IMG/VR virus record: IMGVR_UViG_3300015360_000090
Coordinates: 1-39,855 of that record
DNA from: a virus
Reading direction: 5' to 3' (one strand)
Length of the DNA stretch: 39,855 bases
Position 1 is the first letter of the stretch; each line of letters begins with the position of its first letter. A model generated the notes under the pieces. The model had not been told where the DNA came from. It made no database searches and worked only from the letters and a program-made list of their open reading frames with translations. The position numbers and the translations under genes are program-made. This document shows, in pieces, positions 3,465 to 33,397 of this stretch.

Positions 3465-5877
<2,413 letters not shown>

Positions 5878-6550: not shown

Positions 6551-8380
6551 TCAGATGACGGCGTAGTCATCGCCGATCAGTGCTTCAATCTCTTCCATAG
6601 CTCTGTCTTCCCTGATACGTGCCGCGGCCTCTTCGCTCGAGGGCTCTTGGATCGGTGCAAAGATATCGGGACGCTTGACGTGAAACAGGCTCACGACCAT
6701 GCAGTAAAGGATGGCGTGGAAGGTGTCGTCGGGGATGCTGCGGGGCTTATCGTATTTGATCATACGCAAGGTCTCGCTGTACTCAGCGTGGATGCTGAGG
6801 ATGTCTTCGGCATACGGTACTTTGAACACGTCGTAGGCCGGAAGTCTGATCTTCCCGGTCTTGAGTGCTGAAAAGATGTCAGCCATGACTACGGTGCGGA
6901 AGATAATGGAGCGGTAGAGCGCGGCCTTGAACGTGATCTTCTTGGTCGACTTGGCAGCGTACTGGAACTGATGCACGCGCTTAGGGCCGTAGATCGAGGT
7001 GAGCTTCTTGTTTTGCACAAAGCCCATACCGTAGTCGGACCCGATGAGCTTGATGCTGAACTTATTGATCAGCCTCAAGATTTCTCTCATCTGAGGTTCC
7101 GGGTCGGTGAGCACGCCATCGAAGCGCTTCGTGAACACAATCTGGAAGCTGCTGTCGTTTCTAACGTACCCGCCAATCGTGATCACCGAGTAGGCGTTGG
7201 CGCCGGTTCCCCAGTCGAGTCCGGCATAGAGGTTATGCGTCTTGCCCAGCACTGCGACCTGGTCTTCATCCATCAGGTAGGTGTTGGTCTCGTCGCAAGC
7301 CCTAGCCACTTCCATTCTAGTGATCGGCTTAGTACCGCTGTCGTAGCTCAGTGCCATGACCTCATTCATGAACTGTGCTGTGGGGTACGTCTCCATGGTG
7401 TGGAGGATCGAGTTCCATGCCTTGTACGGGTTCTTGTCGCTGAAGTCAGGCTTGAAGTACCACGGCACCATGAGGCGGCAGATGCGGTAGCCCTCTACGG
7501 TGGCACCGGGGTTCATGGCCACCCACCGAGATAGTGGGTGCTCTGGGTTCAGTCCGTTGCCGCAGCGTTCACAGATCGGACCTACCTTGCCGATGTTCTT
7601 CGGTCCCAGCACCACCCAGTGAATCGGAATGTGATGCTCGCAGGGCACCACCCACTCCGACATCGTGGACTGCTTGGACCAGATGTTCTCGATCGAGTTA
7701 TCGAAGCTCTTCGGCGTGCCGCTGTAGACGTGCAGTGCGTTTCGAAATCTCGATGCCGACTCCCTGATAACAGGAAGGACGTCCTTGAGTAGGTCCTGTA
7801 CCTCGTCATAGAAGATCGAGGAGACCGAGATGCCGCGGATGCGGTCAGCGTTGAGGAAGGCGTACCGAAGATAGATCTTCGACTGCGTCAGGAACTCCTT
7901 CTCGAGGATGTTCCAGGTCAAGCTCTTGTGCGTAAGCGCTTTGACCATCGGGCTGATCTCTACGATGTCATCGATACGCGCAGAGCTAAACACCTTGGTC
8001 TGACTAGCCGAGGGCGTCACGAACATGACGTTCTGGTACCAGTTCATCCCGCACAGGGCGATCAGCTTGTTCCCTAGCGTGGTCGACTTTTCGGTCTGGC
8101 GTGAGGTCATGAACAAGACCTCACGCGACTCGGTGTCGTAGGGGCGCAGAAGGTACTTACGCTCCGAGAACTCGATCGGAGCTACGCGGCCCTTCTCGCC
8201 GTCCTTCACGCGGACCATGTGCGTGGTCCACTCCGATGTCTTCATCGCGAGCTTCTTCACGCCTAGCTTCTTTTTCTTTGCCATAGCGCTGAATGGATCA
8301 GCGACATACAGTTCCTTCGAGCGGTCACCCTTCTCGAACGCGGAGTAGTCGATGTCACCGAAGATGGGCTTGGACGCCAT
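6551..8380 (-). CDS. terL: Terminase large subunit (DNA-packaging ATPase/nuclease)
   Basis: I start at the ATG at 8380 (609 aa) because AGAAAGAGA lies about eight bases upstream; an upstream in-frame ATG at 8476 has no such site. The ATPase half has a variant Walker A, SRQTEKST (93-100), with Glu where Gly is usual, and a Walker B, SIFYDEVQD (188-196). A small insertion has a possible zinc site: CEHH at 247-250 with CERC at 270-273. The RNase H-like nuclease half has YAGLDWG (Asp389), GSDYG (Asp449) and DDTFHA (551-556). Family role: the motor that threads and cuts concatemeric DNA at the portal. The portal gene is about 15 kb away on the same strand, an unusually wide separation. It is the last gene of the RNA polymerase/spike block. 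Confidence 0.93.
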   Translation of the reverse strand: MASKPIFGDIDYSAFEKGDRSKELYVADPFSAMAKKKKLGVKKLAMKTSEWTTHMVRVKDGEKGRVAPIEFSERKYLLRPYDTESREVLFMTSRQTEKSTTLGNKLIALCGMNWYQNVMFVTPSASQTKVFSSARIDDIVEISPMVKALTHKSLTWNILEKEFLTQSKIYLRYAFLNADRIRGISVSSIFYDEVQDLLKDVLPVIRESASRFRNALHVYSGTPKSFDNSIENIWSKQSTMSEWVVPCEHHIPIHWVVLGPKNIGKVGPICERCGNGLNPEHPLSRWVAMNPGATVEGYRICRLMVPWYFKPDFSDKNPYKAWNSILHTMETYPTAQFMNEVMALSYDSGTKPITRMEVARACDETNTYLMDEDQVAVLGKTHNLYAGLDWGTGANAYSVITIGGYVRNDSSFQIVFTKRFDGVLTDPEPQMREILRLINKFSIKLIGSDYGMGFVQNKKLTSIYGPKRVHQFQYAAKSTKKITFKAALYRSIIFRTVVMADIFSALKTGKIRLPAYDVFKVPYAEDILSIHAEYSETLRMIKYDKPRSIPDDTFHAILYCMVVSLFHVKRPDIFAPIQEPSSEEAAARIREDRAMEEIEALIGDDYAVI

Positions 8381-8447
8381 GAGTGGTCTCTTTCTAACGT
8401 GGCTGGGTAGCTCTGTAGCCGGGAACCTCAGGGATAAGGAAGGATCA

Positions 8448-8660
8448 ATGTGGTTCCGCTTTGCGGCGCCTCCCACTGATCACTTCCGTCTGGCCGCCCG
8501 TAACTACCTTTCCGAGTACAACCGTGCGCATGGCACGTCGTTTTCTGTAGCCTTCCCGAAGGCCTATCGCATGAGGCTCAAAGAGGGGCGTCGATCTCCT
8601 CGAAGAACCGATGGGCAAAGTAGAAGGGATCAGGGGAAGCCCCAACCCCCTTCGCGATGA
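8448..8660 (+). CDS. Possible small protein, 70 aa, opposite to its neighbours
   Basis: A near-perfect AAGGAAGGA ribosome site (8436-8444) precedes an ATG at 8448. The first 47 residues (beginning MWFRFAAPPTDHFRL) look protein-like and fill the otherwise unused 197-base gap between terminase and the next gene. The last 80 bases overlap the 3' end of the oppositely oriented 128-aa gene, and that tail is low-complexity and basic. It has no plus-strand neighbours. It could instead be a leader of the terminase mRNA with no coding role. Confidence 0.35.
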   Translation: MWFRFAAPPTDHFRLAARNYLSEYNRAHGTSFSVAFPKAYRMRLKEGRRSPRRTDGQSRRDQGKPQPPSR

Positions 8661-12018: not shown

Positions 12019-13143
12019 TTATTCGAGGAAGACCTTTGTCGACAGAATGCTCTGTAGCGCAATGATGGACGGAGGCGAGAGCGTCGCAGTACTAGTCGCA
12101 GGGTTCACGATCCAGATCGCCGATGCCAGGAACTGAACCAGCTCTGGGCCCTTCACAGCCTGCTTGATAGCAAGTCGGCTACCTAGCTTCACCTGGGCGC
12201 CACCAAGGACATTCGCCTGCGCCGCAATGGATTCGATCTTACCGTTAGCCGTCGTGACCTCGTCACCTGTGATGGTAACACTACGATTCCCACCCACTGT
12301 GAGCTCATCGTTTCCAGTGACGTGGATCTCACGGCCAGCCCCCACGATCTCAGCTTTGTCGCCGGAGGTGGTGATCACCATGCTGTAGACCTCGTTCTCT
12401 ACGGTGCCATCATCCCGGCTGATGCCTTGGGGTGCGATGTGTACCTGCCAGGCTGCCTTATCGCTCCCACCAAGCGGTAGGTGCTGGATCCGCACCGTAG
12501 CCTTAGCATCCTGAGAGAACTCGTTGAGATGGAATGTGTAGGTCGCCGGGGCTTGTCCCGAGGGATCATCCTCCTGCCTACCCACAGTCCACGCGATGTC
12601 GCCCCCGAAGCTGTGCATCTCGTAGTTCTCGCAGAAGTCCTTGATGTAGTTCAGGACCGGGATGTACACGCGCTGTGCAATCGGAGTAGCTCCGATCTGC
12701 ACCACACCACCCCGGCGAAGCATGATGAAGTTCTCGTCACGCGTGGTGATCGCGATATCACCTGGGTTCAGCTTCGGTCGCCTAGATCGAAAGCTCACGT
12801 CGGTTGACGACCCCTCAGCAGCAACGCTCGGCCGCGCCGGTGCATCGGTGGCACTGACCGTAGCGCTAGCGGCTCCTATATACCCAAGAATGAACGGCGG
12901 CGTGTTGTCGTTCGGCCATGCGATATAGCAGATCGATCCAACCTCTGGGAGGTGGTGGATGCCCTCACCATTGGCGGGGTTGTGGTACGGCGACATCGTC
13001 TGGATGTCTTCGACCGTTTTCGCGGTATGCCGAGACTCCGCCGTGACCGTATACGTCTCGCGATTCACATTAGTGATCGTGCATTCCTCGCACCGGAAGT
13101 GTGAGAAGCGAGAGTGTGAGGGTGCGCCTGGTGTACGGGCCAT
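12019..13143 (-). CDS. Baseplate central spike / cell-puncturing protein (gp5/gpV-like)
   Basis: At 374 residues, the N-terminal third has an OB-fold signature: a Gly/Pro-flanked segment GSICYIAWPNDNTPPFILGY at about 71-90, the style seen in gp5, gpV and VgrG spike proteins. The last third (about 270-330) has alternating short strands (HVTGNDELTVGG, NRSVTITGDEV, ANVLGGAQVKLGS) typical of the beta-helix spike of contractile tails. A Cys pair (RCEEC, 18-22) lies near the start. Family role: a trimeric tip of the tail tube that pierces the cell envelope. This is the main evidence for a contractile tail. Its ATG overlaps the RNA polymerase stop (TAATG), so the two are coupled. The family assignment is good; lysozyme activity is not apparent. 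Confidence 0.75.
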   Translation of the reverse strand: MARTPGAPSHSRFSHFRCEECTITNVNRETYTVTAESRHTAKTVEDIQTMSPYHNPANGEGIHHLPEVGSICYIAWPNDNTPPFILGYIGAASATVSATDAPARPSVAAEGSSTDVSFRSRRPKLNPGDIAITTRDENFIMLRRGGVVQIGATPIAQRVYIPVLNYIKDFCENYEMHSFGGDIAWTVGRQEDDPSGQAPATYTFHLNEFSQDAKATVRIQHLPLGGSDKAAWQVHIAPQGISRDDGTVENEVYSMVITTSGDKAEIVGAGREIHVTGNDELTVGGNRSVTITGDEVTTANGKIESIAAQANVLGGAQVKLGSRLAIKQAVKGPELVQFLASAIWIVNPATSTATLSPPSIIALQSILSTKVFLE

Positions 13144-16100
13144 TATTTCGGAGCTCCAAAGGGCATGGCCCCAGGCTTAGCGCCTACGGTGATTCCTACT
13201 GCGAGCGCCGGGATGGGGTGGCGCCCGGTGACGTCGCTACGCTGACCGTGTTGGATACCCGTGAGGATGCTCTGGCCGATGCGCTCACCCTGCAGGCGTG
13301 CGATCCAATCATGCTGCCTGCGCAGCGGGTTCGTCTTAGTCGGCAGCAGCATCGACGCGTACTGTATCTGCTCCTGGTCCTTCATCTTGTTACGGTTGAT
13401 CTCGTCCAGCACCGACTTCTGCACGTAGTCTCCGCGAACGTAGCCGCTATGGCTGCCGGGATCGACGACCCTGACGACGCCTGTGGCGTTACGTACAGCG
13501 AGCTCGACGTGCCGACGTAGCACACCTTCGCGGCCGTAGATGTTTCCGATCTTGTCCACCATGTGCGCCTGCACAGCGTCTAGGCCCTTCGTCGCGAGGA
13601 TGTCGTGGATGTTCGGATCACCTGTAGTCAGGGAATCCCCACGCTTCACTTCAGCGCCAGGCTTGATGTGCTCGAACGGCTTCTGTCGCGTCTTGACCTT
13701 AGTGCGATCGAACGAAATCACCCAGTCGCCACCCTTGCTGTGGTGAACGTCTGTGACCTTCCCCGACAACGGGGCAAGCGCAGCGTCTTCGCGGCCACGC
13801 TTCGCAGCATCGAAGAGCTTCTGGACATCGCCGAAGTCCGAGATGTTCTGCCCACTTGTACTGACGATGCCACCGCCATGCGTCTGCTTCAGCATGATCT
13901 GCGCCGCGCGCTCGCCGAGCGCCTGAGCCGCTACAATGCCGACGTTCTCGCCCATCGCGTACTCTTTGCCGCTTGGATGTACGCCCATGCAGGTAGAGCA
14001 GATCCCTTGCGGCATTCGGCACTTCAGCGGAGATCTCACGACCATCTGGTCTACGCGATGCTCCTTGGCCTTCGATAGCATGTCAGGGGTGACGACATGC
14101 CCTGCAGCGTAGGTGTGCGTACCTAGCTTCAACGCATGCGCGAGATGACGATCGATGACGTCCTTGTGGCCGATGGGCATAGACAGGCCATGTGGCGTGC
14201 CGCAATCATGAGACGTGATGGGCTGATCGATGTTGGCCTGCACAAGGAGCTTGCTCATGTAGCCAGGCTCCCGGACGGAGTCAGTCTTTTGGATCACACC
14301 TCGGCGAGCTCCAGCGGCCTGAAGAAAGTAGCCGCCGACATCGATACCCTCAGCGAAGCTCTTCACGATAGGTACTCGAGACGGCGCACCTAGGTGATCC
14401 TCTACCAGCATCGGTGCCATGAGGAGGCCCTGGAACTGCTCTCGCTTGGCCTTGATGCCAGAGCCTAGAGGCGCCGGCGCCATGTCCGAGACATTCGTAG
14501 GATTCTTGCGCAGCTCAGCAGTGTAGACATCATGGATATCACGGGTCGCCTTGAGCCACACGTTCGTGATATGCGACTGATCTTTACCGCTCGCATGCAT
14601 CGCATCCGTCTCTTTGCGCGCAGCTGCAATGATCTTATCTCGCGGAGCCCGGAGAGGCTCAATGTCCTTGAGCCCTACAGTGTGTCCTGAATCGTAGGCC
14701 ATGCGGAAGCCTAGGCGAGACATACCGTCTACGATCTCGACGAAGTGCTTCGGAGAGTTCTTCGCCACGTCTTTCAGTATCAGCTCTTGGTACTTCCGAT
14801 CGACAGGCTTCTCGAGGTTCGTAAGTACGTCGGCCTTGTACTTTTCTGGAACTGCCTCAGCGATACGAAGGCGCCCAAGCGTAGTCTGCCCTACGCCCTT
14901 GACGTTGATCTGCTGATTCAGGTTGATCACGTTATCTGTGAACGCCTTCTCTGCGTCCACGTGGCTCTTCAGCACGGTGTTGTGCTTGCCACGAGGGATC
15001 GACATACGATAGAGGCTGAGGGCGGCTTCGTTCGCTGGGGCGTAGAGAACATCACCGCTGGAATCAGACAGCGTGCGCTGCGACGGCATGATGCGACGCG
15101 CTTCTTCCACGGCCTCATGTGTGAGCGGGACCATGAGCGCTACGGTATCGCCGTCGATGTCTCCTCCCAGGGGCGGAAGGATCAGCGGGCTGACCTTGAT
15201 GGCGTTGTCGTTGGTGAGCTTCACGCGCTGTCCGACAAGGCCATACTGATGCAGCACGGGGTCGCGCTTCATCAGCACAGGCCGGTGCAAGATCTCTTGC
15301 TCGAGTGCCTTGATGGCGACAGGATCTTTCCGGCTAACCATGCGCTGTGCTTCATCCGGCTTGATGCGTGCCTGGATGAGCCGGCTAACGATCATCGGGC
15401 GCATCAGCTCGAGAGCAATCTTCTTCGGTAGGCCGATCTCATCGACGCTCAGGTTCGGGTCGACAACGATAGTGGCTCTAGCAGTGTAATCCTGCTTCTT
15501 CGCGATCATCTTGTCTTGAAAGAACCCGTCCTTGGGCTGCTCGCCAGAGATCATGTGAAGAATCCCGGGCAGGGTCTTGTCGGGGTCTTCCTTCGTGCCC
15601 CGCATGTCTAGCTCGAGGGCCTTCTTGCCCTTCGGCGTAGTGCCGAAGAGGTTCGACAGCTCTTGGTACAAACCAGCACGGGCATCGAGGGTGTTGTTGT
15701 ACGGGACCTTGTTGTCGCCCTTGCGCAGCGACTCATTCACCATACCAAGCCTGCGGTACAGGCTGTTGAGCGGGTTGTTCTTGACCGTACCATCGGGGAG
15801 CGTGGTCTGAGGACGGAACACAGGAGGCAGCACAGGAACAGCCTTGATGGTCCACGCCTCGTCCAGTCCCTTACCTGAGTCAGCGACGTTCTTCAGTGCC
15901 TTGTACTTGAAGTGCAGCTTGTCCAGCTGTGCGCCTTTGATCTTTGGGTCCTTGAGCTGCGCCGCCGCAAGCTTCATCTCCTTCGTCACATCGATCCGCT
16001 TCAGCGCATCGCGCATGGCGCGACCACCGAAGGTTCCATCAGGAAGCGTCTCCTTGCCCTCGATGATCTTGTGGATGTCGGTCTCCTTGATCCCTAGGGT

Positions 16101-19100
16101 GTGCGCGATGGCTCTAGAGTACACAGGGTTCGGCATCGGCTCTACAAGCTCGATATGTCCCCAGTGATGCCCGATCGCACCGCCCGTGATGTTGGGATCA
16201 AACAGGCCACCAGGCTCCGCCTTCTCATCCTTGCCCCTGATGGTGCGGGTGGGTCGTGTGATCTCTCCACGACTCAGCTCACGCGTCTCCTTATCGCTAC
16301 GAGGCATCAGTCTGATCTCAGCACCAGACTTCTGAACGTTCACTCCTAGGCCAGTGAGCATCGCCTCGAACTTCTTGAAGACAAACGGAATCTTCGGGGC
16401 CGGGATTCGATCACCGTTAGCCAAGGCACCCCACACCTCACGTGCCTGGCCTTGGTCTGACTTGAGGGTCTGCATCTCGCGGAGGTTGTCGTTGAGGCCC
16501 GCGGCTAGGGCGGCGTAGATACCTAGCGAGCCCAGGCTCTGGGCGCCGCTATGGCCGCCACCACGAGGCACCTGGGTGTCGTTGTCGTAGTGCATCTTGG
16601 GTGCGTCGAACTGGGTCATGTCTGGCCCACCCGAACGCATGTGCGTCTTCTTATCGATCTGATGCTCGAGCTGGAACGCGTAGTGAGGGCCCGTCATGAT
16701 GTCACCGAGCTTGCGACCGCTCTTCGGGTCGTAGAGCGCATCAGTGTCCGTGAGCCCGTGATGCTTCAGCTCGTCCTGCACCTTCTTCAGGTAGTCGACA
16801 CCACCCTGAAAGTTCTTCACGAGGTATGTCTTGCCGGTCTTGTCCGCGATCTTACCGGCAGCAGTCTCGAGCAGCTGACCTGGGTTCATGCGACCAGCAA
16901 TGCCGAGGGGGTTGAGCAGCATCTCGACGTGCTTGCCTTTGGCGTCATGCGGCATCTCTGCATCAGGCAAGATCTGCGTAACGATGCCCTTCGCGCTATG
17001 CCGCGTAGAGATCTTCGACCCAATCTGCGCCGGCTCCAGGGTCTTGAGATGTACGACGACATTCTTACCGACACGCTCAGAGCGCACTACCTCGGCCTCG
17101 TAGTCCCCATCCCAGATCATCGACGAGTTCTGGTACTTGTTACGTAGGCGCTTTCCGATCTTGTACTTCGCGTTGATGTCTGCCGTACCCGGCAGAGAGA
17201 CCTCACCTAGCGCAAGCACCAGCGGGTCACCTGGCTTGACCTTCGTGCCAGGCTTGACGATGCCATCGTCGCCGATCTTAGCGATGCGGTCGTTCGAGTA
17301 GACACCAGGCTTGCCGATCAAGAACTCCTTGCGGCCGATGACATGGGTGTCTGACACCAACATGCTCGGCTTGTACAGGTGCTCCGAAGCCATGCGACGC
17401 GCTGCACTGTCCGAGATGACGATGCCGTCCTCGTGGTTCGAGCCGTTGGCGAGGTACGCCGTCCTGAGGTTAGTACCGATCGCAAGCACACCTTTCTTGG
17501 TGTAGTTGTTGTCTGCGATGACCTGGCCAGCGCGGACCTTGTCCCCTACGGCGACCAGAGGCGAGCTGTGTAGCTGGCCTTTGGGATCATTAGTGGGGTA
17601 GTGGTGGTAGAGGTGGACGCTGTGCTTTGCACCGTCCTTGCCCTGAATCACTATCTCGTCTGATCTAACTTCCTTCACCACACCGTCATGCGCAGCCGTG
17701 TGCGCGAGGAAGCCGCCACCGACAAGAGACTCGAAGGACTTACCGGCGCCAGCCTCGACCTGAACCTTCGGGGCCTCTCGCCCGACTACACTGATCGCCT
17801 GAGCCATGTGGCGCGCAGACATCGTAGATCTGCCCGCGCTATCGCTTTGCATGAACGGAACCAGGTTGGTCTCGACAGCGAAAACCTGCGCTGCGCTAGG
17901 CATGACGTAGTCAGCCTTCGCGAAGGCGATGTCATCGCGCATCTGCCCACGGCCATCGCTCATGCGTGTGTTCCGGTTCAGCGGAACCGGCTTGCCCTTG
18001 TCCCAGCGAACCTGGTCCGGCAACACGAGGTTGCTCACAGCAGCCGTCGCGGCATCGACATCCTCGAGCTTGCCCGTCTTCATATTGTGAAGGCGAACAT
18101 GCGGCTTACGGTCCTTGATCGTTACGCCGAATGTAAGGTGCGTGTTCACACCAGCATTCGACTCCGGGGTGAACACCGGGTCGAGGAAGCCGAGGTGGCT
18201 GGGATCTAGGGAGGTGTTCGACTTCGACAGCGCGTGGGGGTTCTGGATGCCGCCAGGGCCCGTGATAGTAACCATCGAGCGGTCGGCGAGCATGGACAGC
18301 GGGTTCGTTTGCTTGCTGTTCGCGGCAAGGGACGTCGTGAAGACATGGTAGAGCGGGCGCTGAATCAGGTCCGGGGCGAAGACGTCACGGATCACACCTG
18401 CGTCACCCGCAGCCAGGCGTCGCTGAACCGTAGGCTTGTTGAGCTGCTTCTGTATGCGCGACGTGATATCAGGCGCCGCCTTTTGAATGCGGTCTATGAA
18501 CTGATCTTTCGCGGTCCACAGTTCCTTGTATCGCAAGCTATCGATCGGGTCCGGGGACTTCCGTCTCGCCGCGACATCGAGCAGCTTCTTCGACGCTTCG
18601 AACAGCACAGCACCGTCGACCCTGTCGGACTTGACCCCGACGTTCGCGTGGGCAACCGACGCGTCGATCTTCGTGCCCTCGAAGATAGCTTTGATCTCCA
18701 CCATCGGGTCCGACTTCGGGTCGAGCGGCTCTTTGCGCCAGGTCTCGTACAGGGACTTGAGGTCCCTCGCAGGATTTGCCTTTTTCTTCGAGGCCTCGTA
18801 CGCGTCGTCTCCCCAGCCCTTCTTCATCTGCTCATCCGAGACGCCTAGCGCACTCAGCACAGAGTAGAGCGGGATCTTTCGTGCCCCGAGCTTCATGTGG
18901 ATCTCTCCACCATCACCGGTCTGGACGTCGAAGCTACGGCCCTTGGCGAGCTGGAACTGTGCCTCGAACTCGCCCTCCTTCTCGGTAGCCTTGACGTAAA
19001 CACCAGGACGCAGACGCCACTGGTTGGAGATGAACTTCTCGGTACCGCCGATGATGTAGCTGTAGTGCCTGGTGAGCTTAGGGATCTTGGCGATCGCCGA

Positions 19101-19367
19101 GTTCTTGCGGCTCACCATGACCTTACCGGTCGCGACGTCGACCACTTCGATGGTGCCCAGCACGGGCGAAGCCCATGAGCGTCCCTCCATCTTCGACTTG
19201 AACTGACCCTTCAGATCATCGACACCAAGATGGTCGTCAACCCTGAGGTTGGTGACCCTAACTTCGAACTTCCCCGTCCGGTCCTTCACCGGAAAAGTAG
19301 ATCCGATTTGCTGGAGAAGCTGATCTTTCAGCTCTTCGAACTGTTGATGCGGGTCGGATGTCAGCAC
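13143..19367 (-). CDS. Single-chain multisubunit-type RNA polymerase: beta fused to beta'
   Basis: 2074 residues from the GTG at 19367; an in-frame TAG four codons upstream leaves no earlier start. The beta half has GGTEKFISNQW near 107, a rifampicin-pocket segment ending ITGPGG near 370, GTNLRTAYLANGSNHEDGI, Lys785 and Lys793 in GSKISTRHSAKG (equivalent to E. coli K1065/K1073), NPLGIAGRMNPGQ, and a beta C-terminus with MQTLKSD. At about 1015-1045 it passes straight into beta'. That half has RPTRTI and GLFDPNITGG, LPVLPPVFRP, KKQDYTARATIVV, the catalytic GGDIDGDTV (Asp1403/1405/1407), a bridge helix and trigger loop (GYFLQAAGARRGVIQ near 1685), zinc site 2 (Cys1722, 1783, 1790, 1793), GENVGIVAAQALGERAAQ and a complete C-terminus. 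The beta' N-terminal zinc site (first four Cys) is absent. No alpha, omega or sigma gene is visible here. The role is DNA-directed transcription by an enzyme with the bacterial two-barrel layout, not the T7 type. Confidence 0.96.
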   Translation of the reverse strand: MLTSDPHQQFEELKDQLLQQIGSTFPVKDRTGKFEVRVTNLRVDDHLGVDDLKGQFKSKMEGRSWASPVLGTIEVVDVATGKVMVSRKNSAIAKIPKLTRHYSYIIGGTEKFISNQWRLRPGVYVKATEKEGEFEAQFQLAKGRSFDVQTGDGGEIHMKLGARKIPLYSVLSALGVSDEQMKKGWGDDAYEASKKKANPARDLKSLYETWRKEPLDPKSDPMVEIKAIFEGTKIDASVAHANVGVKSDRVDGAVLFEASKKLLDVAARRKSPDPIDSLRYKELWTAKDQFIDRIQKAAPDITSRIQKQLNKPTVQRRLAAGDAGVIRDVFAPDLIQRPLYHVFTTSLAANSKQTNPLSMLADRSMVTITGPGGIQNPHALSKSNTSLDPSHLGFLDPVFTPESNAGVNTHLTFGVTIKDRKPHVRLHNMKTGKLEDVDAATAAVSNLVLPDQVRWDKGKPVPLNRNTRMSDGRGQMRDDIAFAKADYVMPSAAQVFAVETNLVPFMQSDSAGRSTMSARHMAQAISVVGREAPKVQVEAGAGKSFESLVGGGFLAHTAAHDGVVKEVRSDEIVIQGKDGAKHSVHLYHHYPTNDPKGQLHSSPLVAVGDKVRAGQVIADNNYTKKGVLAIGTNLRTAYLANGSNHEDGIVISDSAARRMASEHLYKPSMLVSDTHVIGRKEFLIGKPGVYSNDRIAKIGDDGIVKPGTKVKPGDPLVLALGEVSLPGTADINAKYKIGKRLRNKYQNSSMIWDGDYEAEVVRSERVGKNVVVHLKTLEPAQIGSKISTRHSAKGIVTQILPDAEMPHDAKGKHVEMLLNPLGIAGRMNPGQLLETAAGKIADKTGKTYLVKNFQGGVDYLKKVQDELKHHGLTDTDALYDPKSGRKLGDIMTGPHYAFQLEHQIDKKTHMRSGGPDMTQFDAPKMHYDNDTQVPRGGGHSGAQSLGSLGIYAALAAGLNDNLREMQTLKSDQGQAREVWGALANGDRIPAPKIPFVFKKFEAMLTGLGVNVQKSGAEIRLMPRSDKETRELSRGEITRPTRTIRGKDEKAEPGGLFDPNITGGAIGHHWGHIELVEPMPNPVYSRAIAHTLGIKETDIHKIIEGKETLPDGTFGGRAMRDALKRIDVTKEMKLAAAQLKDPKIKGAQLDKLHFKYKALKNVADSGKGLDEAWTIKAVPVLPPVFRPQTTLPDGTVKNNPLNSLYRRLGMVNESLRKGDNKVPYNNTLDARAGLYQELSNLFGTTPKGKKALELDMRGTKEDPDKTLPGILHMISGEQPKDGFFQDKMIAKKQDYTARATIVVDPNLSVDEIGLPKKIALELMRPMIVSRLIQARIKPDEAQRMVSRKDPVAIKALEQEILHRPVLMKRDPVLHQYGLVGQRVKLTNDNAIKVSPLILPPLGGDIDGDTVALMVPLTHEAVEEARRIMPSQRTLSDSSGDVLYAPANEAALSLYRMSIPRGKHNTVLKSHVDAEKAFTDNVINLNQQINVKGVGQTTLGRLRIAEAVPEKYKADVLTNLEKPVDRKYQELILKDVAKNSPKHFVEIVDGMSRLGFRMAYDSGHTVGLKDIEPLRAPRDKIIAAARKETDAMHASGKDQSHITNVWLKATRDIHDVYTAELRKNPTNVSDMAPAPLGSGIKAKREQFQGLLMAPMLVEDHLGAPSRVPIVKSFAEGIDVGGYFLQAAGARRGVIQKTDSVREPGYMSKLLVQANIDQPITSHDCGTPHGLSMPIGHKDVIDRHLAHALKLGTHTYAAGHVVTPDMLSKAKEHRVDQMVVRSPLKCRMPQGICSTCMGVHPSGKEYAMGENVGIVAAQALGERAAQIMLKQTHGGGIVSTSGQNISDFGDVQKLFDAAKRGREDAALAPLSGKVTDVHHSKGGDWVISFDRTKVKTRQKPFEHIKPGAEVKRGDSLTTGDPNIHDILATKGLDAVQAHMVDKIGNIYGREGVLRRHVELAVRNATGVVRVVDPGSHSGYVRGDYVQKSVLDEINRNKMKDQEQIQYASMLLPTKTNPLRRQHDWIARLQGERIGQSILTGIQHGQRSDVTGRHPIPALAVGITVGAKPGAMPFGAPK

Positions 19368-19403
19368 CCGCGCAGTCTACCCGCCTCGGAGATTGTGGGT
19401 CAA
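19368..19403 (-). promoter_or_regulatory. Sigma-70-like promoter giving a leaderless RNA polymerase mRNA
   Basis: On the minus strand TTGACC (19403-19398), an 18-base spacer, TAGACT (19379-19374) and six bases (GCGCGG) lead directly to the GTG. Counting the GTG as +1 puts the hexamers at -36 to -31 and -12 to -7, the usual positions. There is no ribosome site. The same layout recurs at 30165-30200. Confidence 0.6.
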
Positions 19404-19441
19404 CGCGAGCCTATCTACAGCTATCAGCATGTGGAGTAAAC

Positions 19442-20033: not shown

Positions 20034-21188
20034 ATGACCTACGGATTTCAACAAGCCCTGGAACTGGTTCGGCGAGAGCTGAACATGCAGAAGACCCTGA
20101 CCGCCAAGGGCGTGCAGCACCCACTGAACAACCCGCTGATCCTCGGTCCCGTAGGCGGCGGCAAAACTGCGATCGCCCACGAAGCCTGTGAAGCTGAGTC
20201 GCTCACCCTCCTCGCTATCAACTGCGGTGAGAACAGTGACGCCACCGACGTCTCAGGTGTCCCGGTCCCTAGCATGATCAAGCACCTCATGGACGAGGGC
20301 ACGGTCGGCGAGAAAGCCGGAGCACAGGGTGCCTACATGGAGTGGGTACTGAATAGGTACGCTTCGATCGCATGCGCACAGCCTGGGTTCCTGCTGTTCG
20401 ACGATCTCGACAAGGCCCCTCCAGCGGTTCAAGGGGCCCTGCTCGGGGTCACAGCAAACCGAAAGTTCCGCGACAAGTCTCTTCATCCGGGCACGCTCAT
20501 CATGGGGGCGGGCAATCGGCTCGGTGACGACATCTACGCCAATGAGATCTCTGAGTCACTGCGCACACGCATGACTATCATCGAGATGGCCCCCGACCTC
20601 GTCAGCTTCTCGAAGTACGGCCGAGCCAAGGGTGAGATCCACGAAGCCGTGATCGGATACTTGCAGTACAAGCCGAGCCAGCTGCATCAGTGGAAGGAAG
20701 GTGCATTTCGCTTTCCCACACCCCGAGGCTGGTGGGAGGCGTCGCAGCAGATGTTTGCGTACCCCGTAGCTGACGAAGACCTCTTCAGCACCGGGAGCCG
20801 CGACAACTGGAAGGGCATCGTTTCGCGCAAGCTCGGTGAGCACATCGGCAGCGACTTCTGGGCCTGGTATCAGATCATCAGCAAGGTAGACGTCGATGCG
20901 ATCTTGATTCGCGGAGACATGGCGACCACTGGCGATTCCGCCGCTGTACGCATGCAGCAGTACGCCGCAGTGTTCCGTATCGCCCAAAAGCTGAACCAAG
21001 ACGGTGTGAAGCCTGCGTACGTAGGCCTCGGGGCCTGGGTCCCACAGATCGCGCCTGAGATGCGCGTGGCCCTGATTATCCAGCTCTCAACGAAGTCAAG
21101 GACCTCGATCGCCACTATCTTCCCAAAAACCGCAACCGACATGCTCGCAGAGTATGTCTCTACGCCGTCAGGTACAAAGAGGACATAA
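20034..21188 (+). CDS. MoxR-type AAA+ ATPase
   Basis: 384 residues. Walker A GPVGGGKT is at 38-45, Walker B LLFDDLDKA at about 120-128, and a sensor-1-like region GAGNRLGDD follows. The Arg-rich stretch ESLRTRMTIIEM shortly after matches the arginine finger/sensor area of MoxR ATPases. Family role: hexameric ATPases that remodel or activate partner proteins, usually encoded beside a VWA-domain protein, as here. Its TAA overlaps the ATG of the next gene (TAATG), which supports a joint complex. The ribosome site is weak, so it may depend on coupling to upstream translation. The substrate is unknown. Confidence 0.85.
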   Translation: MTYGFQQALELVRRELNMQKTLTAKGVQHPLNNPLILGPVGGGKTAIAHEACEAESLTLLAINCGENSDATDVSGVPVPSMIKHLMDEGTVGEKAGAQGAYMEWVLNRYASIACAQPGFLLFDDLDKAPPAVQGALLGVTANRKFRDKSLHPGTLIMGAGNRLGDDIYANEISESLRTRMTIIEMAPDLVSFSKYGRAKGEIHEAVIGYLQYKPSQLHQWKEGAFRFPTPRGWWEASQQMFAYPVADEDLFSTGSRDNWKGIVSRKLGEHIGSDFWAWYQIISKVDVDAILIRGDMATTGDSAAVRMQQYAAVFRIAQKLNQDGVKPAYVGLGAWVPQIAPEMRVALIIQLSTKSRTSIATIFPKTATDMLAEYVSTPSGTKRT

Positions 21189-22378
21189 TGATCGATGAGC
21201 GCAGTATCACGAACAAGGAAGCGCTTCATGCTGTAAAGCAGGCGCTCCAAGACCTGATGCTGTTCTTTCCGCTGTGCGGTCTCTCCTACTTTGGAGAGGC
21301 CGTGCAGGTTCGGGAGGAGCGCAGCATACGAACGCTGATGACTGATGGGCGCCGGGTTTTCTACTCCCCGGACTGGATCAACGGCATCACGCCTAATGCT
21401 CGGATTTTCGATTTGCTCCACGAGTGGCTGCACATCTTTTTCAACCACGTCGCCCGTACTGGAGATCGTAACAAGAAAACGTGGAACGTCGCGGCCGACA
21501 TGGTCGTAGTCCGCGAGGCCTGCTTGATCCTGTCTCGAGGCGGCAACATATGGACTGCACCTCCGGACGGAATCATACCGCAGCCCTGGGCCGCGGACAT
21601 GACAGCCGAGGAGATCTATGACGAGCTGATGAAGCAGCAGAGCCTGCCCGCAGGCAAGGGAAGCGGTGAGCACGAGAGCGGCGAGGACTTCGCGGAGCCC
21701 GAGCATGACCCAAGCGTAGGTGAGGAAGAAGACTTCCTTCGTACGTTCATGGAGGAGATCGCCCAAGCTGTGCTGATACAAGAACAGATCACGAGCACAC
21801 CAAAATCGGAGATGCTCACAAAGGCCATCAGAGACAGGCTCACTGATCTTGAGAAGTCTACGGTGCCCTGGAGTCGGCTACTACGCGGCACACTGATCTC
21901 CCAGATGGGGCAGGTGGCTCCGACGTACTCGCCTCCGCGCATGCGCTATTTCCCTGCCATTACGCTGCCCTCGATGCGGTCTCTGAAGGAGGAGAAGCTA
22001 ATCATCCTGATCGATGTCTCGACGAGCGTAGGGCCTAGGCTGCTGAAGACCTTCGTCTCAAACGTACTGCCTGCAGCCCAGCGCGCGAATGAGGTCATGA
22101 TCGTCACCTTCGATAGCGATGTGCGCGAGACGATTCGGACTAAGAACCCGAAAGCTGTGTTCAGCTCCCTGACCTTTCAGCCGGGTCACCACAAATACAC
22201 CTCCGTGGTATCGGCATTCGATATCGTAGAAGCGTACAAGCCCAAAGCGATCGTATGCCTTACCGACGGAGAGATCCTATTGCCAACAAAAACGTACCCA
22301 CAAACGCTATGGGTGATCCCACAGGGAGGGAGGTCACAGCCATGGGGACGGAACTTCGTGATGGACGTCTCGTGGTGA
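21188..22378 (+). CDS. Putative metallopeptidase fused to VWA-like domain (DUF2201-type)
   Basis: 396 residues in two parts. The N-terminal half has a zinc-peptidase motif, HEWLHIFFNH (His78, Glu79, His82, with a further His87). An acidic, Gly/Glu-rich linker follows at about 150-185. The C-terminal half has a VWA/MIDAS motif, LIDVSTS (Asp276, Ser278, Ser280), and later CLTDGEI, matching the third metal-binding position. This order, peptidase-like then VWA-like, is that of the DUF2201 families, usually paired with a MoxR ATPase. Whether peptide bonds are cut is unknown; in some relatives the zinc site may be structural. Its 3' end overlaps the next gene. Confidence 0.85.
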   Translation: MIDERSITNKEALHAVKQALQDLMLFFPLCGLSYFGEAVQVREERSIRTLMTDGRRVFYSPDWINGITPNARIFDLLHEWLHIFFNHVARTGDRNKKTWNVAADMVVVREACLILSRGGNIWTAPPDGIIPQPWAADMTAEEIYDELMKQQSLPAGKGSGEHESGEDFAEPEHDPSVGEEEDFLRTFMEEIAQAVLIQEQITSTPKSEMLTKAIRDRLTDLEKSTVPWSRLLRGTLISQMGQVAPTYSPPRMRYFPAITLPSMRSLKEEKLIILIDVSTSVGPRLLKTFVSNVLPAAQRANEVMIVTFDSDVRETIRTKNPKAVFSSLTFQPGHHKYTSVVSAFDIVEAYKPKAIVCLTDGEILLPTKTYPQTLWVIPQGGRSQPWGRNFVMDVSW

Positions 22379-23746: not shown

Positions 23747-25687
23747 CTACTGGTTTGCTCGTCTAGGCGGTCGCTGCTCCGGCATCGGCCGCATGTCGAC
23801 TGTCGGGGCTGCAGGGCCCGTAGGCTGCGTCCCGGCGCCTTGTGGGCTCTGCTGAGGCGGCTGGCCTTGCGGAGCGCCCTGCGGAGCGCCTTGCTCGGGC
23901 ACTACGCCCTGGCTGGCCAGTAGCTGTAGTGCCTCAGGCTGGCTCTTCAGCTGCTCGAGGTACACGCGCTGCTGCTCAGGCGGCATCGTCTTCACTCTAT
24001 CCGCTAGAGCTGCCGCTACGGCATCAAGGCTGTAGCCCGAGGGCTGTGCTGCTGCGCTGGAGCCTTGGATCTCGTCGAACGGCGTCCTGGGTGGAACCGA
24101 TGCGCGTGCCATGGTCTGCTGCGCCGCGGACTGTGCCTGGGCCTGGTACTTTGCCATGACGAGCTGGGCCTCGCCTTGGGCCTGTGCCTCGACCAGCTGC
24201 TTCTGCCGCAGTGCTTCCGACTTGATCTTGGCCTCGCCAATCATCAGCTCGGACTCGTCTTCGACGTTTAGATCAGTGAACGACAGCAGGGTCGAGTCAC
24301 TGATTTTCCCCGCCATGTTGAGCTGCAGCATCATCGCCTGACGCTGAAGATCATCGGCCATCTTGAACGGCTTGAACTTACCTTGAGGCAGTGGCCAGTT
24401 CATGTAGGCGCCGAAGCGCTTCGTGACCCAGTCGAGGAGACGTTGGTGTGCGAGCACGTTGCTGAGAAAGAAGTTCTCGAGCATCCGCATCGAGACGCTG
24501 GTCCCTGCGTAGGTTCCTCGACCGAACACGAGATCGACTGGAAAGCCCATTCCGGCGACCATGACCTCTGCTGCTTGCTGGATCTCCGGCATCAGCAGCA
24601 GTGAGCGCCCGTTCTCCCCGATGACCTGATGGCCAAGGGGGAATGGGAGGATGCCGTAGTACGCAGGATCAGCGCGCTGCCTCGCGAGCTCGCGTCGAAT
24701 ATGGTCTCGCCAGTTCGCGAGGTCGATCGTCGAAAAGGGATCTGCGTTAGCCGTTGCAGGCTGCGGGAACAGAAAGATCTGCGGTACTAGGTGCGTGAGC
24801 AGCACAGCTTCTTGGGCCTTGCGCATCACCTGGATGTAGAACGCGTCTTTCAGCACAGGCATCAGCAGAGGGATGCCCCAGCCACGGCTCATGCTAGACA
24901 ACCCGGGTCTACGCATGTGAAAGATCTCAGACTTATCGAACACGAGCTGGCGTCGTGTCTTCACGGCCTCGAGAAAGATCTCAGGGGTCGTAGCTACAAG
25001 GTCCTTGCGGCCCATCATGATCTGACCGCGAAAGTCAGGACTGATGTCGAGCGCATAGTCCATGCGCCCCGTGGACTCGTTGTAGAAGATGTGGACGTTC
25101 TCAGGGTTCCAGCGAATCAGTCCGATCTCGCTGTACTTCGGGTAGTAGTCATCGCGTGAGGTCGCGAAGTCGTGCTGACCACAGGTCGGGCATTCAAGCC
25201 AGAACCTGTGATTCATGTAGCGCCAGTTAGGGCGTATGCTCAGCGCGTCGTGCTCCGCCGTGCACATCGAGTTCCCGCACAGCAGCTTCTTACGGAACGG
25301 GAAGCTCGCACTGACGAACGCATTGCCGTAGACGAAGTAGTCTAGGTTGATCTCATACTGGTGAACACGATAGTTCACAACACCGAGAAGCAACTCTTCC
25401 CACTTCTCGCGCACGCCGGCATCGCGGTGCTGAATGATCAGGTCGGTGACCGGATACTCAGACGCCTTCGTCACAACAGCATTGACGATGCCGTGCGTGA
25501 GGAAGTAGAACCGACAGAACCCAAACAGGTCTTTGATCGATGGCGGAGTGTACGTCGAGGCCTGATCGAAGAAGGGGTTGCTGAATGGCTGGTACTTCCG
25601 GCCGAGCACCTGACTACGATCAGCGTTGCCGCCCATGGCCGAGTTTGCGCCACCAGCGCCCAGCCCATTCGTACCACTGAAAAACAT
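23747..25687 (-). CDS. Portal protein
   Basis: 646 residues. The portal core is recognisable by its order: an N-terminal disordered Gly/Asn-rich stretch, helices around RFYFLTHGIVNAVV, the wing segment YFVYGNAFVSASF (about 115-130), a long stem/clip region, and RGTYAGTSVSMRMLENFF (about 400-415). A four-Cys insertion (CGNSMC near 138 and CPTC near 170) could bind zinc. The C-terminal 150 residues are Gln/Ala-rich, then Pro/Gln-rich with short GAPQ repeats, and probably disordered. Family role: a dodecameric ring at the capsid vertex for DNA entry and exit. It is the last gene of its block; the ATG overlaps the stop before it (TGATG). Confidence 0.85.
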   Translation of the reverse strand: MFFSGTNGLGAGGANSAMGGNADRSQVLGRKYQPFSNPFFDQASTYTPPSIKDLFGFCRFYFLTHGIVNAVVTKASEYPVTDLIIQHRDAGVREKWEELLLGVVNYRVHQYEINLDYFVYGNAFVSASFPFRKKLLCGNSMCTAEHDALSIRPNWRYMNHRFWLECPTCGQHDFATSRDDYYPKYSEIGLIRWNPENVHIFYNESTGRMDYALDISPDFRGQIMMGRKDLVATTPEIFLEAVKTRRQLVFDKSEIFHMRRPGLSSMSRGWGIPLLMPVLKDAFYIQVMRKAQEAVLLTHLVPQIFLFPQPATANADPFSTIDLANWRDHIRRELARQRADPAYYGILPFPLGHQVIGENGRSLLLMPEIQQAAEVMVAGMGFPVDLVFGRGTYAGTSVSMRMLENFFLSNVLAHQRLLDWVTKRFGAYMNWPLPQGKFKPFKMADDLQRQAMMLQLNMAGKISDSTLLSFTDLNVEDESELMIGEAKIKSEALRQKQLVEAQAQGEAQLVMAKYQAQAQSAAQQTMARASVPPRTPFDEIQGSSAAAQPSGYSLDAVAAALADRVKTMPPEQQRVYLEQLKSQPEALQLLASQGVVPEQGAPQGAPQGQPPQQSPQGAGTQPTGPAAPTVDMRPMPEQRPPRRANQ

Positions 25688-28613: not shown

Positions 28614-30164
28614 CTAGTGAACGTTTGCAGCGAGCCGCGAGAGTACCACCTTCTGCGGGCTCGGCATGCTCTTGAAGATCCCAACAGGGTCTGCACGAAA
28701 GCTATGTGCAAACCCCTTACCGAACATGTCATCGAGCGACATGTCGCGCCCAGCCAGTGCAAGGAGATCAGCGGCGCTGGTGTAGTCAGTGCCCTCCGAC
28801 CACGAATACGTGTCTTTCTCCTCGGGCTCGTTTGCAGCGATCTTTACGCTACCGTAGACCGCAGCAAACGGGTCGAGAAGCCCCACACCGGGACGACCAT
28901 ACGATCTCGATGCACCCGTGTCCTCGTCAGCCTCGCGGAGCATGTCAGCCATGACCATCGGAGAAATCTCTGATCGCTTCTCCAAGAGCAGCTCGTAGAC
29001 CGCTTCCTTGCCAGTGCCCTCATACTGAGAGATCCGAGCATGGAGTTCGGAAACAAGATGTGGACCGTAAGCGTCGCCGGCATACTTCAGCAGCTCGCCG
29101 GAGATCTTGGTGCCGAGCTCATTCGCGCGGTACGACACCGTCTGCGCGAACATACGACGCTCAGCCAGAGGGAACTCCGTGATGTGGGTATCGAAGTACG
29201 CGCTGGCCTGCTTGACCTGCATCGCTGTGTCGATGGGGTACTGCTGTAGGTGAGGCAGCGCGTAGTGTGACGCCGCAGCGATCTTACGGGTCGTCACAGG
29301 CTCTGCCTCAGTGACGTCACCACAATGCAGCCAGCCCTCAGCGACCGCTACAGCCGCAATCTTTGCCGCCGCCGTCTTCGCCGGAAGGCTGAGCCGGCTC
29401 GAGGGGCTGCGGCGACCGCTACCCGAACGCAGAGACCCACCCGCAGGCATCGCCTCAGTACCTACAAGGTCAGCCTTCTTCGCGCGTCCCGGAGGATACC
29501 CACCAAGCTGTGCCTCGGGCTGATCGATCTTCCTGAGCTGCTCATCGAGCTTACGCCACGTAGCGTCATGATCAGAAAAGTGGGACAGCGCATCCCAGAT
29601 GTGACCAGACTCCGGGCCCTTGTCCTTCGACAGTGCCGAAACCTGATCCTCAGACAGCTCAATCTCTCGTCCTGCCTGCTTGACGCCTGAGGCCTGCGCC
29701 ATACGGAACGCGTCCATGTTCGCCTTACCGCGCTGCGACCCCTCACGCACCTTGCCAGCCATGTCCATGGCCCCAAGGCCCGCAACAAGGGCACTACCGA
29801 CCATAGCGATCTTCACGATAGCCGCAGGAGGGTCCATCTCGTACCACGAGCACCCATTGATCAGGTTCGCGGCAACCTTCTGCTGAGCCGTGCCGGGAAG
29901 AAGATGACCGGTCTCGTTGAAGTAGATCATGGACAAGACGAGGTGTGCCTCGTCGTGCATGGCGTACTTACGCACCACGTCATCGCCGTTCGTAGCGACG
30001 AACGCGAACAGTCGATCGGGCAGGCGCCCTAGCTCCTCTTCGCTGAGAATACGGGCCGATGCCAGCTTCTCCGGTAGTTGCCGCCCTGAGGAGGCGATCT
30101 TGGTCCGAAGGACAGCGCCCTTCGGATCGTCGTAGAGGTCGAGCACGATCCCGGCGATTCGCAT
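28614..30164 (-). CDS. Hypothetical virion-type protein, 516 aa; first gene of the portal block
   Basis: I start at the ATG at 30164. The possible TTG start at 30200 is itself part of a promoter -35 box, which argues against it. The N-terminal 100 residues are helical, with HDEAHLVLSMIYFNETG. A hydrophobic stretch near 115-135 (IVKIAMVGSALVAGLGAM) could be a membrane helix. The middle is charged with a Ser/Arg-rich linker near 255-275. The C-terminal half is helical, with several KxA-type repeats. No family is recognised. Position and composition suggest a large internal virion protein. Confidence 0.75.
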   Translation of the reverse strand: MRIAGIVLDLYDDPKGAVLRTKIASSGRQLPEKLASARILSEEELGRLPDRLFAFVATNGDDVVRKYAMHDEAHLVLSMIYFNETGHLLPGTAQQKVAANLINGCSWYEMDPPAAIVKIAMVGSALVAGLGAMDMAGKVREGSQRGKANMDAFRMAQASGVKQAGREIELSEDQVSALSKDKGPESGHIWDALSHFSDHDATWRKLDEQLRKIDQPEAQLGGYPPGRAKKADLVGTEAMPAGGSLRSGSGRRSPSSRLSLPAKTAAAKIAAVAVAEGWLHCGDVTEAEPVTTRKIAAASHYALPHLQQYPIDTAMQVKQASAYFDTHITEFPLAERRMFAQTVSYRANELGTKISGELLKYAGDAYGPHLVSELHARISQYEGTGKEAVYELLLEKRSEISPMVMADMLREADEDTGASRSYGRPGVGLLDPFAAVYGSVKIAANEPEEKDTYSWSEGTDYTSAADLLALAGRDMSLDDMFGKGFAHSFRADPVGIFKSMPSPQKVVLSRLAANVH

Positions 30165-30200
30165 GAGCGCAGCGTATCTCGTAGAGGGGAAAGCGGTCAA
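30165..30200 (-). promoter_or_regulatory. Sigma-70-like promoter giving a leaderless mRNA
   Basis: On the minus strand TTGACC (30200-30195), 18 bases, TACGCT (30176-30171) and six bases (GCGCTC) lead directly to the ATG at 30164. Spacing is identical to the promoter before the RNA polymerase gene, and CTGCGC is shared at the -10/start junction. No ribosome site precedes the ATG. Confidence 0.55.
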
Positions 30201-30227
30201 ACGCTCCTATCAGTAAGTAGAGGTGCT

Positions 30228-32719: not shown

Positions 32720-33397
32720 GTGCTCAATACAGCGACCAAGCTAAAAGTTCTGCGGGACAAGTGGATCGGTTGTACGAAGTGCGGGCTGTGCAAGCTACGC
32801 CAGAGCCCGGATATCGTCTTCGGCTCCGGCCCGTACGACGCCGACTTCCTTCTACTCACTGACGCTCCCGGTGAGTACGACGTCGAATGCGGCACCCTAC
32901 TGATGGGAGAAGAGGGGCAGCTTGTAGAGGACATGCTGTCGAAGTCCAACATCAACCCGTCGAAGATCTTTCGTGTATCTGTCGTGGGATGTCGTCCTTA
33001 CGTCGTCGTACCCGAGACCGAGAACTCACCCGAGAGAATCCAGGACCGAAGCCCGCGCAAAGAAGAGATCGACGCCTGCTGGACGAGGGTTCAAGAGATC
33101 ATCTACCTCGTCGACCCGCGCATCATCATCGCCATGGGAGACGAGGCCTTCAGGGCTCTCGTCCACGTCAAGTCCCGTAGCCGGCATAAGAGCACCTCGA
33201 CCGCTGTAGGTGATCTATTCGATGCCTGGGTACCTGGTCGCTTACGCGCCGTTCGGTATCCCGTAATCGCCACGCTGTCTCCGAGGCAGCTGGTCGCCAA
33301 CCCTAGCGCTGCAGCCCACGGGCCGATCGCTACAACACTCGATGCTTTCATGAAAGCGTCAAAGTACGTCTCCACGATCAAGAAAGAGGAAACTTGA
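32720..33397 (+). CDS. Uracil-DNA glycosylase superfamily protein (family 4/5-like, Fe-S type)
   Basis: GTG start, 225 residues. Four Cys match the Fe-S ligands of family 4/5 enzymes: the pair in CTKCGLC near the start, the Cys in VVGCRPY near residue 93 and the Cys in EEIDACW near 119. The uracil-pocket motif is TDAPGEYDVE (usual form GEAPG plus acidic), and a DRSP and IIIAMGDEAFRAL region follows as in the family. The second catalytic motif, usually His-Pro-Ser/Ala, reads TLSPRQLVANP here, so Ser stands where His is expected. Activity may be altered or lost. Family role: removal of uracil from DNA; phages also use inactive relatives as polymerase or DNA-binding accessories. Confidence 0.8.
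   Translation: MLNTATKLKVLRDKWIGCTKCGLCKLRQSPDIVFGSGPYDADFLLLTDAPGEYDVECGTLLMGEEGQLVEDMLSKSNINPSKIFRVSVVGCRPYVVVPETENSPERIQDRSPRKEEIDACWTRVQEIIYLVDPRIIIAMGDEAFRALVHVKSRSRHKSTSTAVGDLFDAWVPGRLRAVRYPVIATLSPRQLVANPSAAAHGPIATTLDAFMKASKYVSTIKKEET

Follow-up and report, generated by a model that had tools for sequence, protein, structure and literature searches.

A β-β' RNA polymerase in one open reading frame

The window analysed here is the whole 39,855-base stretch of the IMG/VR virus record IMGVR_UViG_3300015360_000090, which is classed as linear and is probably a fragment. On its minus strand lies a 2,074-codon frame, running from a GTG to a stop codon (13143-19367), that encodes the β and β' parts of a bacterial-type RNA polymerase (RNAP) as one polypeptide. 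An earlier note, made from the sequence alone, had given this frame the same limits and 2074 residues, which match exactly, and had left its strand unstated. The gene and its parts are as follows:

13143..19367, minus strand: single-chain RNA polymerase, 2,074 amino acids, GTG start at 19367
16332..19367, minus strand: β part, residues 1 to about 1012 (Pfam Rpb2_6, alignment to Enterobacteriaceae β)
13146..16331, minus strand: β' part, residues about 1013 to 2074 (PDB sequence search, alignment, AlphaFold model)
17013-17015, minus strand: codon of K785, in the β part
16989-16991, minus strand: codon of K793, in the β part
15147-15161, minus strand: DxDGD motif, residues 1403-1407, in the β' part

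Along the chain the Pfam models match in the order Rpb2_6 (4e-50), Rpb1_2 (4e-20) and Rpb1_5 (2e-18), with Rpb1_1, Rpb1_3 and Rpb2_3 giving weak matches under their own curated cut-offs. In a PDB sequence search, residues 1014-1062 match the extreme N-terminus of Thermus β' (residues 4-51), and the chain from residue 1109 onward matches the remainder of that subunit; in the structural match described below, model residue 94 (protein residue 1013) pairs with residue 3 of the Thermus β' chain. Sequence and structure together place the start of the β' homology at residue 1013-1014 of the chain. As the Thermus β' N-terminus falls at residue 1014, β ends at about residue 1012 and β' follows directly, without a linker.

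Catalytic residues, fold and rifampicin pocket

We compared residues across 17 phage sequences with those of Enterobacteriaceae RpoB/RpoC. All 17 retain the two β lysines, R513, E646/D647 and R826, together with the three β' aspartates, R1368 and the trigger-loop H1830. The lysines 785 and 793, which the earlier note had placed in the active site, correspond to E. coli β K1065 and K1073, and its DxDGD at 1403-1407 likewise holds, with D1403/D1405/D1407 equivalent to E. coli β' D460/D462/D464. The further claim of a full set of β' motifs stands for the catalytic residues, all of those tested being kept, and falls for the N-terminal zinc domain: 17/17 phage sequences, and the cultured phages Arash and D69 too, lack the first zinc site (C70, C72, C85, C88) through deletion. 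The second zinc site (C1722/C1783/C1790/C1793) has all four cysteines in 17/17.

An AlphaFold model covering residues 920-2074 only (predicted local distance difference test, pLDDT, 87.4; predicted template modelling score, pTM, 0.84) matches T. thermophilus β' with Z 29.7 over 1008 residues at 4.2 Å, and the top of its Foldseek list consists of RNAP β' chains only. The model indicates that nearly the whole bacterial β' fold is retained in the present chain. The window protein thereby carries the marks of the bacterial-type two-barrel enzymes: the DxDGD aspartates, the two β lysines and the β' fold. The rifampicin-pocket positions are substituted (Q513 to A, D516 to K, H526 to D, S531 to T and I572 to N), and from these substitutions we predict that the single-chain enzyme is rifampicin-resistant.

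These residues also bear on whether the protein could be a degenerate or non-transcribing derivative, such as a decoy or a structural protein. Its great abundance in Arash virions and the loss of zinc domain 1 would suit such a role; set against this are the active-site residues, invariant over 17 divergent sequences, and a ratio of nonsynonymous to synonymous substitution rates (dN/dS) near 0.1, and we regard the idea as very improbable.

The single chain is the standard form of a large phage clade

Since rpoB and rpoC are separate in most cellular genomes, the chain could in principle have arisen by an assembly or sequencing error that joined a β to a β' gene. Six near relatives, in contigs of up to 177 kb, each carry the entire chain, at 74-83% identity. 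Two profile scans of IMG/VR recovered 68/68 and 72/72 intact loci as single chains, with no split; these 140 loci comprise 109 distinct sequences in 76 clusters at 70% identity, and the identity of the single-chain relatives reaches down to about 31%. Against three near relatives, dN/dS is 0.10-0.13 over the whole chain and 0.05-0.08 over residues 980-1060 around the junction: strong purifying selection spans the junction. A joining error, which the earlier note had raised for the junction, is thus excluded by independent assemblies, 140/140 intact relatives from many metagenomes being joined at the same place, by the selection on the junction, and by the same junction in the isolate genomes of Arash and D69; the probability that we leave to chance or error is negligible. 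The single chain is the standard form of a large, mostly uncultured phage clade and not a one-off.

The Rpb2-type RNAP loci occur one per record, with no second RNAP of this type in the same genomes. A search for host-linked copies in 84,980 cellular genomes returned, in its best 80 matches, cellular rpoBC only, and assigned no host.

The single-chain RNAPs of three relatives (L093, L089 and L091) contain intein-like insertions of 353-416 amino acids, two of them ending in HN. The insertion of L093 lies at window residue 1406, within the catalytic motif (DxDG^D); those of L089 follow window residues 1792 and 1830, in the zinc site and the trigger loop; that of L091 follows window residue 402, in β.

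Phage relatives and phylogeny

A search of 50,697 GenBank phage records has as its top hits Vibrio phages D69/D148/D181 and Salmonella phage Arash, with 27-31% identity; no full-length single-chain homologue was found in these records, and the remaining high-coverage matches resemble bacterial contamination and are in unannotated records. In Arash, gp206 (1,525 amino acids) comprises β and the first part of β' including DxDGD, with the same junction, and gp216 (606 amino acids) is the rest of β'. Vibrio D69 has the same arrangement: a β-β' fusion in which β' is split after the active site. The nearest fusion polymerases in these records are thus distant and have β' in two genes, so the window protein is no close copy of one.

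Trees, of the kind that the earlier note had proposed, were built with FastTree and in a smaller IQ-TREE -fast run for phages and bacteria only. All single-chain phages group together in the β, β' and joint trees (support 0.96-0.99), the single-chain clade groups with Arash/D69 (0.997-1.0), and, after Cobetia phage Carin-5 with its separate β and β' genes has joined next, all phages stand apart from bacteria (1.0); the IQ-TREE SH-like approximate likelihood ratio test (SH-aLRT) values for these three groupings are 97.6, 100 and 100. The β and β' trees agree, and hence both parts of the chain have been inherited together. The most economical history has a single β-β' fusion in an ancestral phage, with β' either split later in Arash or joined later in the single chain.

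Carin-5 (locus L319) carries an annotated sigma factor followed by adjoining separate β' and β genes, along with a PF07068 capsid, and so offers another phage sigma-RNAP pairing.

No detectable α and a linked sigma factor

The α family PF01193 was detected in 0/25 records and in 13/14 control genomes, though a very divergent α could escape this search. Two relatives encode a sigma-like protein similar to Arash gp10. In most records this sigma escaped a search with the Pfam models of sigma regions 2 and 4 alone, and a dedicated alignment detected it: a profile built from three gp10-like sigmas finds a homologue in 23/27 records, namely in Arash, in D69 and in 21/22 IMG/VR records longer than 130 kb, the misses being G024 and three short contigs including the window. 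The reverse test gave a concordant picture, as 3/3 new contigs found via the sigma alone hold a single-chain RNAP, of 2,099-2,101 amino acids. Three gp10-like members exceed the cut-off of Pfam Sigma70_r3, with r2/r4 weak, and the best PDB fold matches of a model of the protein are sigma70-family chains. The gp10-like protein thus has the region signatures of the sigma70 family and, as modelled, its fold. In 7/8 neighbourhoods its gene adjoins homologues of Arash gp6 and gp8, and in two it lies near gp12/gp13. What is new here is the linkage of sigma and RNAP in the single-chain clade, their reverse co-occurrence, and an α that goes undetected in 25 records. The earlier note had called the enzyme a minimal polymerase: this fits a core without detectable α, and does not fit a clade that encodes a dedicated sigma.

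A different reading of the same genes is that the phage core uses host sigma, and host α/omega, while the gp10-like protein acts otherwise, for instance by redirecting host RNAP. Sigma-like phage proteins often redirect host RNAP. Such redirection is stated for other jumbo phages (PMC7598289), and the motif TTGACC-N18-TANNCT found in the window (see below) resembles a housekeeping sigma70 promoter. The near-strict co-occurrence of the gp10-like sigma with the single-chain RNAP in both directions points the other way; moreover, the sigma-contacting clamp-helix residues of E. coli (R275, E295, A302) are not kept, which argues against unchanged binding of host sigma. We hold this reading to be improbable.

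Genomic context and presence in Arash virions

Around the polymerase gene we identified the following:

23747..25687, minus strand: portal protein, homologue of the Arash gp204 portal (28% over 592 amino acids), with a weak match to the phrog_2833 portal
20034-22378, plus strand: AAA ATPase, then metallopeptidase-like/VWA protein, divergent, between RNAP and portal
12019..13143, minus strand: 374-amino-acid protein, weak match to a baseplate hub/tail lysozyme family
6551..8476, minus strand: terminase large subunit, nearest relatives among phage records Arash and Vibrio D69/D148/D181

The portal gene lies upstream of the RNAP gene on the same strand, as in Arash (gp204, then gp206). Downstream, again on the same strand, come the 374-amino-acid protein, whose start codon and the RNAP stop codon share one base and whose adjacency to RNAP is conserved in relatives, a 688-amino-acid protein and the terminase. 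The RNAP gene thus sits among portal, tail-like and terminase genes, and terminase and RNAP point to the same nearest phage relatives.

Purified Arash virions yielded 3516 spectra of gp206, the most of any virion protein and more than the major capsid protein, with 1210 of gp216 and 467 of gp10; gp6, gp8, gp12 and gp13 were likewise detected in purified particles (PMC10585845). By analogy with Arash, the RNAP of the window's clade is probably also located in the virion.

Candidate promoters

Two types of short element precede genes in the window:

19374..19403, minus strand: candidate RNAP-gene promoter, TTGACC, 18 bases, TAGACT, 6 bases, GTG start
30171..30200, minus strand: second candidate promoter of the same type, TTGACC, 18 bases, TACGCT, 6 bases, ATG at 30164
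19421..19427, plus strand: CTATCAG, candidate element before the divergent ATPase/VWA genes
30207..30213, plus strand: CTATCAG, candidate element before plus-strand genes including a helicase, DnaB helicase and primase

The TTGACCC ... GTAGACT preceding the RNAP GTG is invariant in six aligned relatives, and the candidate at 30171..30200 precedes an operon running to the portal gene. The pattern TTGAC-N19-TANNNT, with a start codon 5-8 bases on, has two occurrences each in the window and in the 172-kb relative G001, one preceding the RNAP gene and one the portal-leading operon. With such small counts this is no more than suggestive of a TTGACC-type promoter shared by the RNAP and portal operons; the spacing suggests leaderless mRNAs for the RNAP gene and the portal-leading operon.

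The second motif, CTATNAG, lies 15-25 bases before start codons and precedes the Shine-Dalgarno sequence, 17 times in G001 and 16 times in a second relative, G002; the mean for 900 rearranged patterns was 1.0 (G001) and 1.7 (G002), and none reached the observed count. It emerged only under the Shine-Dalgarno/start constraint, a choice that was partly post hoc. CTATNAG precedes the sigma gene in both G001 and G002; in the window alone its 3 sites, one probably spurious, are not significant. We therefore treat CTATNAG as a candidate phage promoter; it and TTGACC-N18-TANNCT are presumably used as promoters.

A model for an injected two-protein transcription machine

We consider it probable that these phages possess a complete, α-free single-chain core and a dedicated phage sigma, most likely packed in the virion. 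To our knowledge, all cellular RNAPs need α-like subunits for assembly. The window protein would be a complete bacterial-type RNAP core as one chain, β then β' with no linker and no α, in which the joining of β to β' would replace the assembly role of α. The sigma70-family homologue of Arash gp10, its gene lying in another part of the complete genome, would recognise the promoters; core and sigma would be carried in the virion and delivered along with the DNA, and the phage could then start its own transcription even where host RNAP is inactive or inhibited. Given β and β' in one chain, a sigma gene of its own and no α, the system may be a self-sufficient transcription machine, for which we infer RNA synthesis activity, sigma binding and α independence in vivo. 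It is quite possible, if more tentative, that a widespread clade injects this two-protein machine of α-free core and own sigma, which would use CTATNAG promoters, and that Arash/D69 and the single chain derive from one ancestral phage fusion.

Several observations weigh against the injected machine. The sigma gene was not found in the window itself, a 39.9-kb fragment, by profile and Pfam searches, and the long record G024 is sigma-negative; confidence in the sigma model is moderate (pLDDT 75), and helical folds readily produce matches. The TTGACC-type element, moreover, resembles an ordinary host sigma70 promoter, and host RNAP may transcribe the RNAP gene. The Arash authors also caution that abundant enzymes may contaminate particle preparations or stay attached to the particles (PMC10585845). 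The last two points are compatible with a single-chain enzyme and phage sigma that are made during infection for middle or late genes and are not injected, as is CTATNAG, which resembles phage late promoters in being short and near the start codon. This alternative sits poorly with Arash RNAP spectra exceeding those of the major capsid protein with the sigma present too (PMC10585845), with RNAP and sigma genes inside virion-protein clusters, and with the one Rpb2-type locus per genome, so that no separate injected enzyme of this kind is seen; we judge it rather unlikely.

If the injected core and sigma are as we propose, the single chain with its recognisable sigma offers a simple two-component model for the role of α and for sigma-dependent initiation with a reduced core, where known α-free phage enzymes come in pieces or are too divergent for easy comparison with bacteria. 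It would also be a model for the passage of a large polymerase through a phage tail. The chain is a conserved genomic feature, with at least 109 distinct sequences, of a largely uncultured clade with two kinds of cultured relatives (Arash and the Vibrio D69-type).

Comparison with known systems

The closest system is that of Arash gp206, gp216 and gp10 (OQ632216; PMC10585845) and of Vibrio D69/D148/D181, the sister group in the tree: these share the β-β' junction, the missing zinc-binding domain 1, the portal just upstream, the gp10-like sigma and the terminase relatives. They differ in that the window has one chain, whereas their β' C-terminal half is a second gene, of 606-609 amino acids. 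The published Arash genome already contains the β-β' fusion itself, apparently unremarked.

The mReC survey reported Caudovirales with a deep-branching multi-subunit RNAP, describing β and β' subunits and mentioning fusion only for crAss (Weinheimer and Aylward 2020, PMC7481178). As in mReC, the phage β/β' studied here can be aligned to cellular ones and form a clade apart from bacteria (support 1.0). All eight capsid proteins found in that survey are PF07068 and come from the 8/97 contigs with a detected capsid (PMC7481178); in our set this family was found in 0/24 records, and it was positive in Rhizobium phage RHph_Y65 and Cobetia phage Carin-5. As only 8/97 mReC contigs had a detected capsid, the absence of PF07068 here leaves room for overlap. 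The survey drew on IMG/VR contigs, and a fused chain could have passed its thresholds twice (PMC7481178), so some mReC may be single-chain. Hence the suggestion in the earlier note of a possibly undescribed form survives for the full-length single chain, for which no homologue of the same form was found in the phage records searched and of which we found no description in a literature search that covered few subscription papers and no preprints; it does not extend to the β-β' fusion, already in Arash, or to bacterial-like phage RNAPs in general, surveyed in 2020 as mReC and possibly overlapping.

The distinction that the earlier note drew from other phage enzymes is upheld. Jumbo phages of the phiKZ/AR9 type have two multisubunit α-free RNAPs, one in the virion (PMC7598289); the present enzyme is likewise α-free but is one chain, whereas theirs have β/β' in 4-5 polypeptides, lack a sigma homologue and are far more divergent. 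The crAss-like, YonO and P23-45 RNAPs are two-barrel single chains, some of them located in the virion or joined to the tape measure (PMC10770324); they too unite both catalytic barrels in one chain, yet are little similar to cellular RNAP outside the active site, unlike the bacterial-like chain described here.

Among cellular organisms, rpoB-rpoC fusions occur in Helicobacter and Wolbachia. These share the head-to-tail β-β' order in one gene but keep α and use host sigma. Two metagenome-assembled genomes (MAGs), of Omnitrophota (L141) and Vermiphilus (L147), have β and β' in one frame, of 2,469 and 2,515 amino acids; both are longer than the phage chain, place with bacteria in the tree and are possibly further cellular rpoB-rpoC fusions.

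Other genes of the window

The AAA ATPase/VWA pair is conserved in relatives. The PHROGs label 'HNH endonuclease' for its metallopeptidase-like/VWA member has no Pfam support. On the minus strand, 3-1571 encodes a protein cut by the contig end that has intein-like Hint and LAGLIDADG domains, and the N-terminal part of this protein is similar to one encoded in the virion-gene region of Vibrio phage D69. On the plus strand are a DNA gyrase subunit B with all GyrB domains, conserved in relatives (3955-5877), and, in the replication block, a protein of the uracil-DNA glycosylase superfamily (32720-33397).

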